From Arthrobacter subterraneus (lineage in GTDB: Bacteria > Actinomycetota > Actinomycetes > Actinomycetales > Micrococcaceae), in assembly GCF_900099735.1 (NCBI RefSeq), contig NZ_FNDT01000010.1:62001-126000 (forward strand): a DNA stretch of 64,000 nucleotides. Reading direction: 5' to 3'. The position numbers and the translations under genes were made by a program. Positions 16,105 to 29,946 of this stretch are shown in pieces. Under the pieces are notes generated by a model that was not told the origin of the DNA, did not search any database, and saw only the letters and a list, made by a program, of their open reading frames with translations. How positions within the stretch are numbered: the stretch's first letter is position 1; each line of letters begins with the position of its first letter.

Positions 16105-17343
16105 ATGAAAGCACGCAAGCAGCTTCTCGCTGCAGGATCCACCGTCACGCTCGTTGCGGGCGGTGCTTTTTTTGCCGCGACGCCGGCCGCAGCCGTTCAC
16201 GAATCGCCGGAGTGCCTCACGGCGCAGAGCCAGTTCACAGCTGCCCTCAATAATGCAGGGATTACCGCGGACCTGGAGGTGCAGCTCGCCGTAGCGCTGC
16301 AGAACCTCATTGACGCGCAGGAAACGCTTGATCTGCTGACGGTGGAGGGTGCGCTCACCGTGGAGGAGCTCGAAGTCCTGGTGACCGAGGCGCTACTGAC
16401 TGTCGAAACCGAGCAGCTTCCGAACCTCAATGCCATCATTAACGCCAACGCGTCTGCGGGCAGCGCAGTAGGAGAAGCCCAGGCCCTCCTCGAAGTTGTG
16501 TTGGGCGGACAAATCGATCAGGTGACGGCGGATGCGCTGCTGGAGCTGGGTATCGACGTTGAGGATTTCCTCCTCGCTGCAGCGTTGGATATTGACGGTC
16601 TTACTGCGGCCATCAACGCCGCTGTCACAGGGGGCGACCTCACACAGGTCGAAGCAGATGCGCTCCTCGGCGACCTGGCCGACGGTGAGTTGACCCAGGC
16701 CTCCGTTGACGCGCTGTTCGACGTCGGCATCGTTTCCAGTGAATTCCTGCTTGAGGCAGAGGTTGACCTCGTAGCGCTCGAGGGTGCCCTTCGCGACGTC
16801 ATAGCTGACCTTGAGATCCTCGTTGACGACGCAGCAACGGCACAGTTGCTGGTCGACCTCCTGGCCAGCGGCGATATCGAGGGATTGCTCGCTCTTGAAG
16901 CCGAGCTGGACGCGCTGCTTGGTGACGTGGACCTTAGCGCCCTGATTGATCTGCAGAACCAGATCGTCGCGGCCGACGCAGTTCTCCAAGCCGAGGCAGA
17001 CCTTGCTGCGGCGGTCGCCGTCGTCGAAGGCCTCCTCATTCAGCTCGAAGGGCTGGACATCGACCTGCTGGAGCTGGAGGCACTCTTCAACGCGGCGATC
17101 GATGCCTGCACCGAAGCAGGAGCCGTGGGCGGCGTTGGCACCGACGGCGGTACCGGAACCGGGACCGGCGGCGGCGCAGTCACCACGGGCGGGGGCACCG
17201 GTAGCGCTAATCGCGGAATGAACGTTCAGACAGCCGCAACAACAACCGACACCGACCCCGCTGGGATCGGCGTCCTCGCAGCAGGTCTGGGCTTCATGGT
17301 TGTCGCCGGAACGCTGGCAGCCCGCCGCGTCAGCAACAGCTAG
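16105..17343 (+). CDS. Secreted all-helical surface protein with a C-terminal NVQTA sorting signal
   Basis: This 412-residue protein is exported and probably wall-anchored. Residues 1-30 form a signal peptide (MKARKQ, hydrophobic core, ATPAAA). Residues 35-335 are rich in Ala, Leu, Asp and Glu and should form a long helical domain. It has an internal duplication: GQIDQVTADALLELGI near 135 and GELTQASVDALFDVGI near 194, each followed by FLL. The only cysteines, 37 and 335, bracket the domain and could form a disulfide. A Gly/Thr-rich linker (340-370) leads to GMNVQTA (371-377), then a hydrophobic segment (about 386-405) and the tail ARRVSNS. This is the plan of a sortase substrate, but without LPXTG. 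The sortase gene lies directly downstream. The ectodomain family is not recognised. Confidence 0.85.
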   Translation: MKARKQLLAAGSTVTLVAGGAFFAATPAAAVHESPECLTAQSQFTAALNNAGITADLEVQLAVALQNLIDAQETLDLLTVEGALTVEELEVLVTEALLTVETEQLPNLNAIINANASAGSAVGEAQALLEVVLGGQIDQVTADALLELGIDVEDFLLAAALDIDGLTAAINAAVTGGDLTQVEADALLGDLADGELTQASVDALFDVGIVSSEFLLEAEVDLVALEGALRDVIADLEILVDDAATAQLLVDLLASGDIEGLLALEAELDALLGDVDLSALIDLQNQIVAADAVLQAEADLAAAVAVVEGLLIQLEGLDIDLLELEALFNAAIDACTEAGAVGGVGTDGGTGTGTGGGAVTTGGGTGSANRGMNVQTAATTTDTDPAGIGVLAAGLGFMVVAGTLAARRVSNS

Positions 17344-17360
17344 CATTACGGGACACGTCG

Positions 17361-17397
17361 GGTGAGGGGTGCCGTCCAGCGGACGGTGCCCCTCACC
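17361..17397 (+). promoter_or_regulatory. Strong intergenic hairpin between surface protein and sortase
   Basis: A 17-bp stem (17361-17377 with 17381-17397) closed by an AGC loop starts 18 bases after the surface-protein stop. Every position pairs, with two G-U wobbles. No U-tract follows, so it is unlikely to be a full terminator. It could attenuate the downstream sortase gene or stabilise the 3' end of the upstream message. The second sortase locus has a hairpin in the same place. Confidence 0.75.
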
Positions 17398-17427
17398 GCA
17401 CCACCACAGGGAAAAGATCGCAGGAAC

Positions 17428-18096
17428 ATGAGTACTACCGACACCCGGACCCAACCGGAGGGTCGTAAGCGGCTGGTCCTTGCCGCCGTCGTGCTCCTGC
17501 TCTTCCTGGCTCTGGTGGTGGCTGCGCTGCAGCTGTTCTCCGGCCCGGGAGCGTCCCCGACCACGGCTCCGACGGCGGTTTCGGCAACGTCCGCCCCGGC
17601 AAGTCCGACCCCCTCACCGGTTCCATCGGCGCCCGCACCGCCGCCTGCCCTGCCGACCGCGTCCGCGCCGACCGCGCTCATCATCGAGTCGGCGGATATC
17701 AACGTCCCGGTGTTGCCGCTCACTCCCACGGAGGCGGACCTGGCTGCACAGTCGCTCGTCCCGCCGGAGACCCTCGACGGCTACTGGCTCACCAACTACG
17801 GCGCGCCCGGTGAGGGGTCCAAGGACACCGTGTACGTCACGGGCCACAGCTGGGAGGGCCGCGAAAGCCCCTTCAACCGGCTCAGTTCCGACGTTGAAGT
17901 GGGAGACTCCGTGACACTCACGACCGCCGAGGGGGAGATCGACTACGTGGTGGACACCATCACCACCCACAACAAGGACACGCTGAAGGACAGCGACATC
18001 TGGGACATCGTCCCCAATAGGCTCGTACTGATCAGCTGCTACACCGAGGACCTGTGGGGAAAGAACGTGATTGTCACTGCGACCCCGATATCCTAG
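17428..18096 (+). CDS. Sortase paired with the NVQTA helical surface protein
   Basis: This 222-residue membrane-anchored transpeptidase has a TM segment at about residues 15-37. A Pro/Thr/Ser/Ala-rich stalk (40-82) and a sortase beta-barrel domain follow. The catalytic His is H140 in VTGHSW and the nucleophile is C204 in LISCYTED. The Arg normally found a few residues after the Cys is absent: the segment reads LWGKNVIV and the aligned position is Gly/Lys. Domain length and layout are closest to class E/F actinobacterial sortases. The ATG at 17428 (MSTTDTR) is chosen over upstream GTG codons that would place the start inside the hairpin. It shares a near-identical C-terminal block with the sortase at 28287-29015. 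Its likely substrate is the protein encoded just upstream. Confidence 0.9.
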   Translation: MSTTDTRTQPEGRKRLVLAAVVLLLFLALVVAALQLFSGPGASPTTAPTAVSATSAPASPTPSPVPSAPAPPPALPTASAPTALIIESADINVPVLPLTPTEADLAAQSLVPPETLDGYWLTNYGAPGEGSKDTVYVTGHSWEGRESPFNRLSSDVEVGDSVTLTTAEGEIDYVVDTITTHNKDTLKDSDIWDIVPNRLVLISCYTEDLWGKNVIVTATPIS

Positions 18097-27890: not shown

Positions 27891-28262
27891 TCACCGCTCC
27901 GTGTTGACGTACTTTCGAGTCAGCTCCCGGATGGTCGCGGCGGCGCAATCCTTCATTTCGGGCAGACCTTCAGCGACTGCACCGAGGTCTCCGCGCTTCA
28001 GGGTGGACTCGAGATCCGCTGTCAGCCGGGCCAGCCGGGTGGCGCCGATCATGGTGGCGGTGATCCGCACGCTGAGCAGCGCGTCGAGGGAAGCTGCTGC
28101 GTCTCCGCCCTCCACCGTGTGGACCAACCGGAGGTATCTGTCATCCCAGTAGGCGATGAAGTCCCGGACAAAGGAGCGGGCCGGGGCAGGGTCGTCGAAC
28201 TCGTCCTCCAGTCTCCGCAGCACGCTCCAGGTCACCAGCGGAGGGCGTTTGTTTGCTGCCAT
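27891..28262 (-). CDS. Hpt-like four-helix protein lacking the phospho-accepting His
   Basis: This 123-residue all-helical protein resembles the histidine phosphotransfer (Hpt) fold: SLDALLSVRITATMIGATRLARLTADLE aligns with the usual H-x-L-K-G-S-S-x-x-x-G-A pattern. The His position is Leu63 or nearby, and no His occurs there; the only His is residue 48. Actinobacterial relatives annotated as Hpt-domain proteins are known, but this one should not accept phosphate by the usual mechanism. It begins 24 bp after the second sortase on the same strand, so it may be the third gene of the surface-protein operon. The perfect palindrome AACCGGCCGGCCGGTT touches its stop codon. Confidence 0.65.
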   Translation of the reverse strand: MAANKRPPLVTWSVLRRLEDEFDDPAPARSFVRDFIAYWDDRYLRLVHTVEGGDAAASLDALLSVRITATMIGATRLARLTADLESTLKRGDLGAVAEGLPEMKDCAAATIRELTRKYVNTER

Positions 28263-28286: not shown

Positions 28287-29015
28287 TCAGGGAACCGGGG
28301 AGGCGACAACGACGACGTTCTTCCCCCACAGGTCCTCGGTGTAACAGCTGATGAGGACCAGCCGGTTTGGAAGAATGCGCCAGATATCGCTGTCTTTCAG
28401 CGTGGATTTCAGGAAGGTGGTCACTGAATCGACCCGATAGGTCAGGACGCCCGTGGCCGTAGTCACCGTGAATGTTTCCCCGGGCGTTGCGCCGCTGCTC
28501 AGCCGGTTGAAGGGGGCATCCCGGTCCTCCCAGCTGTGTCCGATGACGTAGGTTGTGTTGGTCGATCCGTAACCCGGGGTGCCGAAGGATGAAAGCCAGT
28601 ATCCATCGAGCGTGAACGGCGGCACGAGGGACTGGGTTTCCCGGGACGCCTGGTCGATTTCCATGGGATACACCGCGACGTCGATGCCCGCCGCTGCATA
28701 CTCGATCCGTAGCGGAGGGGAGGCGAGCGGTCCCTGAATTTCGGTGGGAACCGGTGGCGGAGGAGCCGCTTCTGCCTGCTGCCGTGGAACGGAGCGGTTC
28801 ACGGGCTCAGGGGTGAGGGCGTCGTCGGGCACGGTGTCGACGATCCGGACCGCAACGGCAGGCGTGTCGGTGAGTACTTTGGCGGTCGACGACGACGGTA
28901 GGGAAAGTGCGAGGAACGCCAGCAGCAGCGTGAGGATCACCGCGGTGGTCTTCGACGCCGGTGCCGCGCGGTGGTGCGCTGAATGCCCGGGCGTCGAACC
29001 CTGGTGGGTGTTCAT
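28287..29015 (-). CDS. Sortase paired with the collagen-like NVQTA surface protein
   Basis: This 242-residue protein has one TM segment (about residues 24-42), a Pro-rich stalk (65-100) and a sortase domain. The catalytic His is H160 in VIGHSW and the Cys is C224 in LISCYTED. As in the first sortase, the following segment is LWGKNVVV and no Arg occurs between the Cys and the C-terminus. From LKDSDIW to the GKN block the two proteins are almost identical, whereas the N-terminal halves diverge. The ATG at 29015 follows GGGAAAGGGC and is preferred over an upstream frame extension. The gene follows its presumed substrate after a hairpin, the same order as the first locus. Confidence 0.9.
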   Translation of the reverse strand: MNTHQGSTPGHSAHHRAAPASKTTAVILTLLLAFLALSLPSSSTAKVLTDTPAVAVRIVDTVPDDALTPEPVNRSVPRQQAEAAPPPPVPTEIQGPLASPPLRIEYAAAGIDVAVYPMEIDQASRETQSLVPPFTLDGYWLSSFGTPGYGSTNTTYVIGHSWEDRDAPFNRLSSGATPGETFTVTTATGVLTYRVDSVTTFLKSTLKDSDIWRILPNRLVLISCYTEDLWGKNVVVVASPVP

Positions 29016-29047
29016 GCCCTTTCCCTTCGCCGTAGGTAAAAGGGGAG

Positions 29048-29087
29048 GCGGGGAGTGTGCACAGCCTCCGCGGTACACACTCCCCGC
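29048..29087 (-). promoter_or_regulatory. Intergenic hairpin between collagen-like protein and sortase
   Basis: A 15-bp stem (29048-29062 with 29073-29087), one G-U wobble in the transcript, closes a 10-base loop. It starts 17 bases after the surface-protein stop and ends before the sortase ribosome site. No U-tract follows. Position and strength match the hairpin at 17361-17397 although the sequence is different, suggesting a conserved role in setting the substrate:enzyme ratio. Confidence 0.75.
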
Positions 29088-29103
29088 GTCCGGTTGGAGA
29101 AAC

Positions 29104-29946
29104 CTAGTTCCTGATCAGGTTTCTCCGTGCTGCCCAGAGAGCAGCGAGAACCAGGAACGTCACGAACCCGCCGAGCAGCAACGGTGTTTCTTCCGCTGCA
29201 GGCTCAGCTCCGCCCGCTGTTTGTACGTTGAAGCCCTGGTTGTTGACCGCGCCGGCAGCAGGCGCTGGCTGCATTGCCGGACCTGCCGGACCTGCCGGAC
29301 CAGCCGGACCTGCCGGTCCTGGCTGCCCCGGCTGTCCCGGCTGTCCTGGTTGACCCGGTTGCCCTGGCTGTCCTGGTTGTCCAGGCTGGCCCGGTTGCCC
29401 TGGTTCCCCTGGAGGACCTGGAGGGCCTGGAGGGATTGCCGGCCCTTCAACCGGCACGGGTACGCAGCCGTTGTTGTAGGTTGCTTGTCCGGTGGCGTCC
29501 CAGTTCAGTCCTGCGGGCAGGGCGGTGTTGGGCGGGATGATGTCTGCGCTGTGGTCGCCGTGTCCTTCGAGCCCGTTGAGGCTGATGCGGATTGCCTCGT
29601 AGGGGTGGGTGGCGGAGCCGGTGGCGTGGCAGATGTCGATCTTTTTGTCGACCGGTGGGATGGCTGGCCCCTCGACCGGCTTGCAGCCGTTCTTGTAGGT
29701 CGCTTGGCCGACGGCGTCGTAGTTCAGGCCGGCGGGCAGATAGCTGTTGGGCGGAATGATGTCTCCGCCGTGGTCGCCGTGTCCCTCAAGTCCGTTCAGG
29801 TCCACCTTGTTCGTCACATACGGGTTGCCTTCTGACCCGGTGGCGTGACAGATTTCAACTTTCTCTCCAGGTGTAGCAACCGCGGTCGGCACAACACCCA
29901 GCGACAGCAACCCCAGGATGCCCAGGGCTGCGAATAGACGCCTCAT
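29104..29946 (-). CDS. Collagen-like surface protein with duplicated HGDH repeats and NVQTA sorting signal
   Basis: This is a 280-residue secreted protein. Residues 1-25 are a signal peptide (MRRLFAALG to AVAT). Two copies of a 60-70 residue repeat follow (about 31-91 and 104-164), each with ICHATGS, LNGLEGHGDH, DIIPPN and LPAGLN, ending in ATY-NGC. Each copy has two Cys and several His, suggesting metal or disulfide stabilisation. Residues 174-224 are 17 uninterrupted Gly-X-Y triplets (GPP, GEP, GQP, GPA), a collagen-like stalk. Then come GFNVQTA (238-244), a hydrophobic segment and the tail ARRNLIRN. The HGDH repeat occurs in many secreted bacterial proteins, but its function is not known to me. 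I chose the ATG at 29946 because GGAG precedes it and the signal peptide begins there. Confidence 0.88.
   Translation of the reverse strand: MRRLFAALGILGLLSLGVVPTAVATPGEKVEICHATGSEGNPYVTNKVDLNGLEGHGDHGGDIIPPNSYLPAGLNYDAVGQATYKNGCKPVEGPAIPPVDKKIDICHATGSATHPYEAIRISLNGLEGHGDHSADIIPPNTALPAGLNWDATGQATYNNGCVPVPVEGPAIPPGPPGPPGEPGQPGQPGQPGQPGQPGQPGQPGQPGQPGPAGPAGPAGPAGPAMQPAPAAGAVNNQGFNVQTAGGAEPAAEETPLLLGGFVTFLVLAALWAARRNLIRN
29275..29427 (-). repeat. Collagen-like Gly-X-Y triplet repeat tract
   Basis: This tract of 153 bp encodes 17 Gly-X-Y triplets, with a run of GQP triplets followed by GPA triplets. Nine-base repeats within it make slippage, and thus variation in stalk length between strains, likely. 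Codons vary between copies, so the tract is not a fresh perfect tandem expansion. Confidence 0.9.

Follow-up and report, generated by a model that had tools for sequence, protein, structure and literature searches.

Two substrate-sortase modules in the window

The window, meaning the whole 64,000-nucleotide stretch of Arthrobacter subterraneus DNA analyzed here, carries two modules in which a substrate gene is followed by a sortase gene. Module 2 occupies 28287-29946 on the minus strand. Its first gene, substrate 2 (29107..29946; ATG at 29946 and stop at 29104, placed from the list of open reading frames and start codons), encodes 280 amino acids with a signal-peptide-like start, two Cys/His-rich repeats (ICHATGS...GHGDH..DIIPP; about 29455-29865), a collagen-like Gly-x-y stretch (29275..29430; Pfam PF01391, residues 173 to 224, E = 1e-9), and a C-terminal sorting signal (29107..29241), in which NQGFNVQTA is followed by a hydrophobic helix and an ARR tail. 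The NVQTA itself lies at 29215-29229, and the translated protein ends in NQGFNVQTAGGAEPAAEETPLLLGGFVTFLVLAALWAARRNLIRN. Sortase 2 (28287..29015, minus strand) has 242 residues when read from the ATG at 29015, a GTG at 29078 being a possible alternative start; its key residues are His160, Cys224, and Arg218, with Asn233 in the usual Arg place. The sequence-only reading had described here a collagen-like protein that ends in GFNVQTA, a transmembrane segment, and an ARR tail and is followed by a sortase, and this arrangement was borne out.

The Cys/His-rich repeats gave no Pfam match above the cut-off. They are related to repeats in 16 other linked substrates and could bind metal. An Hpt-like gene (27891-28262, minus strand) begins 24 bp past the sortase 2 stop codon; its Pfam Hpt match (E = 6.7e-4) is below the cut-off, and by eye its phospho-His place looks replaced. 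On plasmid pAsp15-1 (locus L211), an Hpt gene 29% identical to that of the window adjoins a pair consisting of an ice-binding substrate with NVDTA and a sortase; among the other loci searched, which had short flanks, there was no Hpt gene. Opposite substrate 2 and sortase 2, the GC-rich repetitive DNA contains a 363-residue antisense open frame (28744-29835, plus strand), which is unlikely to be a real gene. A terminator scan found four terminators where 1.9 were expected; all four are on the plus strand, so none belongs to the module 2 pair.

The gene order is the same in module 1 (16105-18096, plus strand). Substrate 1 (16105..17343) is a secreted, helical protein that ends in NRGMNVQTA, a hydrophobic helix, and an ARR tail (NRGMNVQTA..ARRVSNS), with NVQTA at 17221-17235; a single-sequence model was all-helical, with a pLDDT of 45 that is too poor for interpretation. 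Sortase 1 (17428..18096) has 222 residues from the ATG at 17428, with GTG 17362 also possible, and its key residues are His140, Cys204, Asn213, and Arg198.

The two sortases are 62% identical across 134 amino acids. As the sequence-only reading had noted, they are nearly the same from LKDSDIW through GKN (26 of 28 residues), and their N-terminal stalks differ. It was also right that the substrate ectodomains are unrelated (best E = 0.54, no alignment), but not that only the motif is shared: the last 40 residues of the two substrates align (15/40, E = 3e-6), so the whole sorting signal, beyond its five letters, is common to both. The sortases are paralogous and fall in separate subclades of one class-F-like clade. 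Module 2, whose sortase belongs to a subclade with Phe or Tyr before the Asn, is not a recent copy of module 1, and the sortase tree gave no support to a local duplication. When six neighbor proteins were compared with 83 loci, most of which had just 1.5 to 3 kb of flank for such a conserved-operon comparison, the neighbors of module 1 recurred in L035 only and those of module 2 nowhere.

The enzymes are divergent sortases

We built a structure model of sortase 1 on 8 sequences (pLDDT 72), and Foldseek matched it to sortases A, C, and D with E values down to 1e-8 and query TM scores of 0.55 to 0.65 among the matches listed. The Pfam Sortase model PF04203 detected 54 of 75 homologs at E ≤ 0.1 (best, 4.4e-14); at full length, neither sortase 1 nor sortase 2 reached it at that threshold. 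At E ≤ 0.01, the NCBIfam general sortase model matched 65 of the 75, the class F model 60, and the class C model 6, and class B was absent from the seven NCBIfam families that the homologs matched. The window sortases scored 18 to 30 bits against the class F and general models, whose cut-offs are 166 and 39 bits. For class F (NF033748, cut-off 166 bits), sortase 2 scored 26 bits and the sortase 1 core 30 bits, full-length sortase 1 had no match at E ≤ 1, and the best of the 75 homologs reached E = 6e-10. Sequence searches of the PDB with single sortases gave nothing useful, and a sortase profile gave weak class C and D matches only (E ≥ 0.027); a class F sortase from the same genome likewise had no PDB match. 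The catalytic His and Cys were present in all 76 homologs, and the residues invariant across the 75 to 76 sequences were H, C, K, W, P, and N. The window pair belongs to a divergent branch of true sortases, for which transpeptidase activity is predicted.

The A. subterraneus genome holds four further sortases, two of class E and two of class F, all above their class cut-offs. Since those four score as standard members and the window copies are divergent, the window pair does not represent the housekeeping enzyme. The two class F enzymes (L089 and L090, on contigs C13 and C20) are above the NCBIfam cut-off, and each gene lies directly after one for a secreted protein ending in ..GGADTGVE..; these units are a second dedicated-pair system within the genome.

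The usual position of the catalytic Arg is Asn

The catalytic Arg is placed nine residues past the Cys in SrtE1 (C320/R329; available text of PMC5148588) and in Filifactor alocis SrtA (C191/R200; available text of PMC13257024), and the class E sortases of the A. subterraneus genome (L087 and L088) also have Arg nine residues past the Cys. At this position, the start of beta8, all 76 NxQTA sortases have Asn. Most have R at Cys-6 (71 of 76) and K or R at Cys+8 (72 of 76), and the five that lack R at Cys-6 all have K at Cys+8. We rejected the Cys-6 Arg as an invariant catalytic Arg on account of these five. Our guess is that the catalytic Arg may have moved elsewhere in these enzymes. A sortase missing the usual catalytic Arg is expected to be impaired, which is a point against the explanation that we favor below.

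Among 17 class F loci (L161-L176 and L090), Asn also occupied the matching last-strand place, located by eye, in 14. Eleven of these 14 had Arg at Cys-4, L171 had it at Cys-6, and L172 and L173 had neither; L174-L176 had Arg in the last strand and Thr at Cys-4. Class F loci thus had Arg at Cys-4 (11/17) or in the last strand (3/17), never at both. Relocation of the catalytic Arg is a possible account of this pattern, and L172 and L173 speak against a simple relocation rule.

Distribution of the sortases

Small two-gene units of this kind occur in soil bacteria related to Arthrobacter. Our main survey covered 295 genomes of the Micrococcaceae, the family of the window. Sortase matches at E ≤ 1e-10 were found in 57, of which 50 carried NxQTA-type enzymes (70 genes) and 7 carried distant relatives only; the line between the two, set at E = 3e-22, is consistent with the tree positions of the six distant loci included there. 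Together with six loci from named genomes, the family survey gave 76 loci. This set left out L001-L004 (L004 being the window itself), L028, which was refetched as L079, and L086, which had no sortase match; L038 and L046, whose sortase cores are identical, were both counted.

An order-level profile search matched 18 of 396 genomes at E ≤ 1e-15. Eight were same-family genomes at E ≤ 1e-69, and the other 10 were weaker (E = 6e-35 to 3e-16), one of them from the same family (G026). In a phylum-wide sample of 396 genomes, only the genome of the window and one family member matched. In a plasmid collection, the one matching record came from Arthrobacter sp. TMP15; this plasmid encodes an ice-binding substrate, and its NxQTA-clade sortase is annotated as class F in RefSeq.

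The sorting signal and its linkage to the sortase gene

At 72 of 74 assessable loci, the gene directly upstream of the sortase gene encodes a protein with G-x-N-x-[QD]-T-A or a close variant of it; contig ends truncate L077 and L078, and the 72 comprise 71 same-strand upstream genes found by script plus L073, found by profile. L009 and L069 had no linked substrate. The motif forms among the 71 were NVQTA (27), NAQTA (12), NIQTA (9), NVQTG (4), NMQTA (4), NVDTA (3), NVDTR (3), NIQSA (2), NLQTA (2), and five single forms. Gly two places before the Asn, the Asn itself, and T or S at the fourth motif place were each present in 69 of 71, and a median of 44 residues separated the Asn from the protein end. 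A strict G-x-N-x-[QD]-[TS]-[AG] pattern matched 65 of the 71 and none of the 80 other C termini used as controls, which likewise had a helix and a basic tail and came from the window or the fetched loci. The signal is wider than the NVQTA first read, being G-x-N-[VAIML]-[QD]-[TS]-A in most. One of the 71, L042 (G222:C27), has GLNIQTA followed by a poor hydrophobic stretch (hydropathy 0.84), perhaps because of signal decay or a sequencing frame error.

These counts are partly circular, since the linked substrates were chosen by motif pattern and in turn served to train the signal profile (from which L042, L070, and L076 were omitted); genome co-occurrence and trans substrates, described below, are less so. 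LPXTG was not found at the signal in any of the 71 linked substrates. The signal model NF058571 (GVDTG_CTERM, cut-off 29 bits) detected 21 of 66 signals at E ≤ 1, none reaching the cut-off, with L072 the best (E = 4.6e-6, 26.8 bits), substrate 2 at 16.2 bits, and substrate 1 without a match at E ≤ 0.1. The general LPXTG anchor model TIGR01167 detected 12 of 66 at E ≤ 1; among 20 signals scanned singly, L047 (21.2 bits) and L072 (18.5 bits) passed its 15.9-bit cut-off, and the two window signals were absent from the matches.

The signal is borne by different ectodomains. Among 90 ectodomains (71 linked and 19 unlinked), 36 had the helical N-terminal domain of substrate 1, 17 had the Cys/His (CH) repeat of substrate 2, and 37 had neither at the cut-off used. 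Three were ice-binding proteins (PF11999, best E = 6.5e-65), and of the 71 linked substrates only substrate 2 had a Pfam collagen match.

The sequence-only reading had called for a search for further NVQTA proteins in the same genome. The exact back-translated motif occurs three times genome-wide, and we rejected the third occurrence, which lies inside isoleucyl-tRNA synthetase. The signal profile gave one further strong match, GMNIQTA in a 319-residue protein on another contig (G000:C38, E = 3.5e-12), whose N-terminal region, including the signal peptide, is 36% identical to substrate 1 over 86 residues. No sortase gene lies beside this orphan. Another match (G000:C30) was rejected as a multispan membrane protein, and 22 weaker ones (E = 0.03 to 7) were left unread. 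One orphan signal was thus found, but the motif and signal-profile searches found no third NVQTA/sortase pair in the A. subterraneus genome, so that in this single genome the refuting condition named in the sequence-only reading is survived only by half.

The signal co-occurs and co-varies with the sortase

The signal profile matched 49 of the 295 genomes, 47 of the 50 with an NxQTA-type sortase versus 2 of the 245 without. Both exceptions lack the motif, one having a GTGLVQTA protein and the other no motif at all; three sortase genomes (G028, G084, and G096) had no signal match at E ≤ 1e-5. Of the 89 signals, 64 were linked to a sortase gene, all 64 upstream on the same strand. The 25 unlinked signals fell in 12 of the 50 sortase genomes (23 signals) versus 2 of the 245 others. 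We read 21 of the 25; 19 were in sortase genomes, and these had N (17) or D (2) at P4, the Asn position of the motif.

In a tree, 75 NxQTA rows formed one branch (SH-aLRT 99), with sortase 1 grouping with L034-L036 (99) and sortase 2 in another subclade, of 19 members (96). The tree was built quickly, from few columns and with no bootstraps; branches outside the clade are long, and L078 was left out. Signal and sortase distances were correlated (Mantel r = 0.46 for 71 pairs; 0/5000 permutations), also after dereplication (r = 0.36 for 44 pairs; 0/5000). The residue before the Asn, P5, was Phe or Tyr in 19 of 19 substrates of the sortase 2 subclade. Among the 52 others it was never Phe or Tyr and in one case Trp; in signals of the sortase 1 type it was mostly L, M, I, or V. 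This split may be one event inherited by one subclade. At L079, the ectodomain has CH repeats of the substrate 2 type, but the sortase lies outside the sortase 2 subclade and the signal is LNIQSA, with Leu at P5, so that the signal follows the sortase. In genome G206, two trans proteins (L205 and L210) have GFDVQTA and GFDVQTG, with Asp for Asn and Phe at P5. Both linked sortases of that genome lie outside the sortase 2 subclade, and the Phe of its trans proteins does not fit the P5 rule.

Among the sortase positions that distinguish the subclades are N182, D184, and D190 (sortase 1 numbering), which lie between two model strands, just before the strand that ends in the Cys. This region probably corresponds to the beta6/beta7 loop. 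In SrtE1 and SrtB that loop touches the substrate, according to the available text of PMC5148588, and in the NxQTA enzymes it may read P5.

Relation to known sortase systems

Class F is the best class-level HMM relative, matching 60 of 75 clade members. In the tree, the NxQTA branch is joined with a sister clade and lies toward class F, in a region where long branches meet and class F itself is not resolved as one clade. Class F loci resemble the NxQTA loci in the Asn at the matching last-strand place (14 of 17) and, in the A. subterraneus genome, in the sortase gene following the substrate gene. The differences are the scores of the window copies (26 and 30 bits against the 166-bit cut-off), an Arg before the Cys that is mostly at Cys-4 in class F (11 of 17) but at Cys-6 in the NxQTA clade, and a signal of N-x-[QD]-T-A instead of the ..TG.. 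of GVDTG-type signals. Among the class F loci L161-L176, the sortase gene is preceded at five (L162, L163, L166, L167, and L168) by one for a protein that ends in G[VI][ADE]TG or GPIDTG, L169 is one of the A. subterraneus pairs, and at the rest no such protein or a different end was seen. Cutibacterium acnes SrtF has LPXTG specificity, according to the available text of PMC13257024, whereas the linked substrates of the NxQTA clade lack LPXTG.

The order-level sister clade (L145-L147, L149, L151, and others) shares the Arg at Cys-6 and the Asn in the last strand, and the gene order is the same where a substrate was seen (L145, L146, L147, and L149). Those four substrates end in ..SNTGVE.. or ..SATGVE.., with a Thr-Gly cleavage site, not NxQTA. 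The Thr-Gly signals of class F and of the sister clade suggest a likely history in which, within the class F lineage, the signal changed from x-x-T-G to N-x-Q-T-A, cleavage following the T in each. On such a history the likeness to class B would be convergent, and so it looks: NPQTN-type signals share N at P4, Q at P2, and T at P1 with NxQTA, but NPQTN has Pro at P3, where NxQTA has V, A, I, M, or L, and the NxQTA P1' residue is mostly A. NVQTG is among the motifs studied for Clostridioides difficile SrtB in the part of that literature available to us. Class E sortases share a genome with the NxQTA enzymes, and both signals lack Pro at P3; however, the LAXTG reported for class E (available text of PMC5148588) has Leu at P4, and class E has the canonical Arg at Cys+9.

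Judged by title and abstract in the open-access literature, we found no description of the NxQTA tag and its enzyme as a pair, although Di Girolamo 2019 and Malik and Kim 2019 could hold part of it. Searches for NVQTA, NXQTA, NVXTA, and N-X-Q-T returned no paper, and those for NAQTA, NIQTA, and GVDTG returned papers that were unrelated by title. The available text of PMC13251363 calls the roles of class F sortases unknown, reports no phenotype for a quadruple class F deletion in Actinoplanes, and describes a substrate screen with LPXTG-like patterns, which N-x-Q-T-A would not meet.

Dedicated sortase-substrate pairs as the preferred explanation

The fold, the His/Cys pair, the gene order, the conservation of the motif, its co-occurrence with the sortase, and the co-variation of signal and subclade were all computed here. 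We put at roughly 0.85 the probability that each module is a dedicated sortase-substrate pair whose enzyme cleaves N-x-Q-T-A between T and A and belongs to a clade branching near class F. The best reading of the NxQTA system is a new variant of class F. The sequence-only reading had held that NVQTA is a true sortase recognition signal, and the comparative evidence, comprising gene order at 72 of 74 loci, genome co-occurrence, in-trans substrates, and signal/subclade co-variation, strongly supports it.

In the mechanism that we propose, the N-terminal signal peptide would export the substrate, and the C-terminal helix and ARR tail would hold it in the membrane. The neighboring membrane-anchored sortase would bind G-x-N-x-Q-T-A, with N at P4, T at P1, and A at P1', and His140/Cys204 (sortase 1) or His160/Cys224 (sortase 2) would cut between T and A. 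An acyl-enzyme would presumably form, and a cell-wall nucleophile would then receive the substrate, so that the sortase transfers it to the wall. The P5 residue may tune which paralog acts, with L, M, I, or V favoring the sortase 1 type and F or Y the sortase 2 type. For the orphan GMNIQTA protein, we predict that sortase 1 acts on it in trans.

A bolder proposal goes further and makes the clade a separate sortase class, defined by Asn at P4 and cleavage between T and A, in which P5, via the beta6/beta7 loop, sets two orthogonal channels in this organism and the Arg is replaced by Asn, its role being taken by a basic residue elsewhere; we consider this doubtful. It is unlikely that the enzyme instead polymerizes its substrate in a pilus-like manner, or releases it as a protease, with no anchoring to peptidoglycan. 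Each unit has one enzyme per substrate, as in class C pilus sortases, the collagen-like, repeat-rich substrates could form fibers, and class C sortases are among the top Foldseek matches listed; however, we noted no further substrate gene next to the pairs (the loci being read without a pilin-motif search), class C profile scores are low, with a match at E ≤ 0.01 in 6 of 75 members, and the trans substrates are of several lengths.

Less probable again is that the C terminus is a mere tail anchor inherited with the pair and that the sortase is inactive or acts on something else. The Asn at the canonical Arg place in 76 of 76 enzymes would suit such a reading, as would the common ancestry of signals and sortases that travel together, but the motif places are kept in 69 of 71 substrates (in genes picked by pattern) against a mean column identity of 34% for the whole signal, ectodomains as different as ice-binding, CH-repeat/collagen, and helical ones bear the signal, and in L079 it goes with the sortase and not the ectodomain. 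That a housekeeping class E sortase processes the signals, with the neighboring enzyme as an accessory, is highly improbable: classes E and F are each represented in the genome by two sortases that score well against their HMMs, but the signal tracks the NxQTA-type sortase (47 of 50 versus 2 of 245 genomes), genomes without the signal are expected still to have class E sortases, and these are the enzymes reported to read LAXTG.

Read as dedicated pairs, the NxQTA clade offers about 70 enzyme-substrate pairs to learn from and a natural experiment in specificity shift, from Thr-Gly to Thr-Ala cleavage with a new P4 and P5. It also allows a test of whether a sortase is able to function when Arg is missing from the usual place, and its signals are possible orthogonal tags for peptide ligation.
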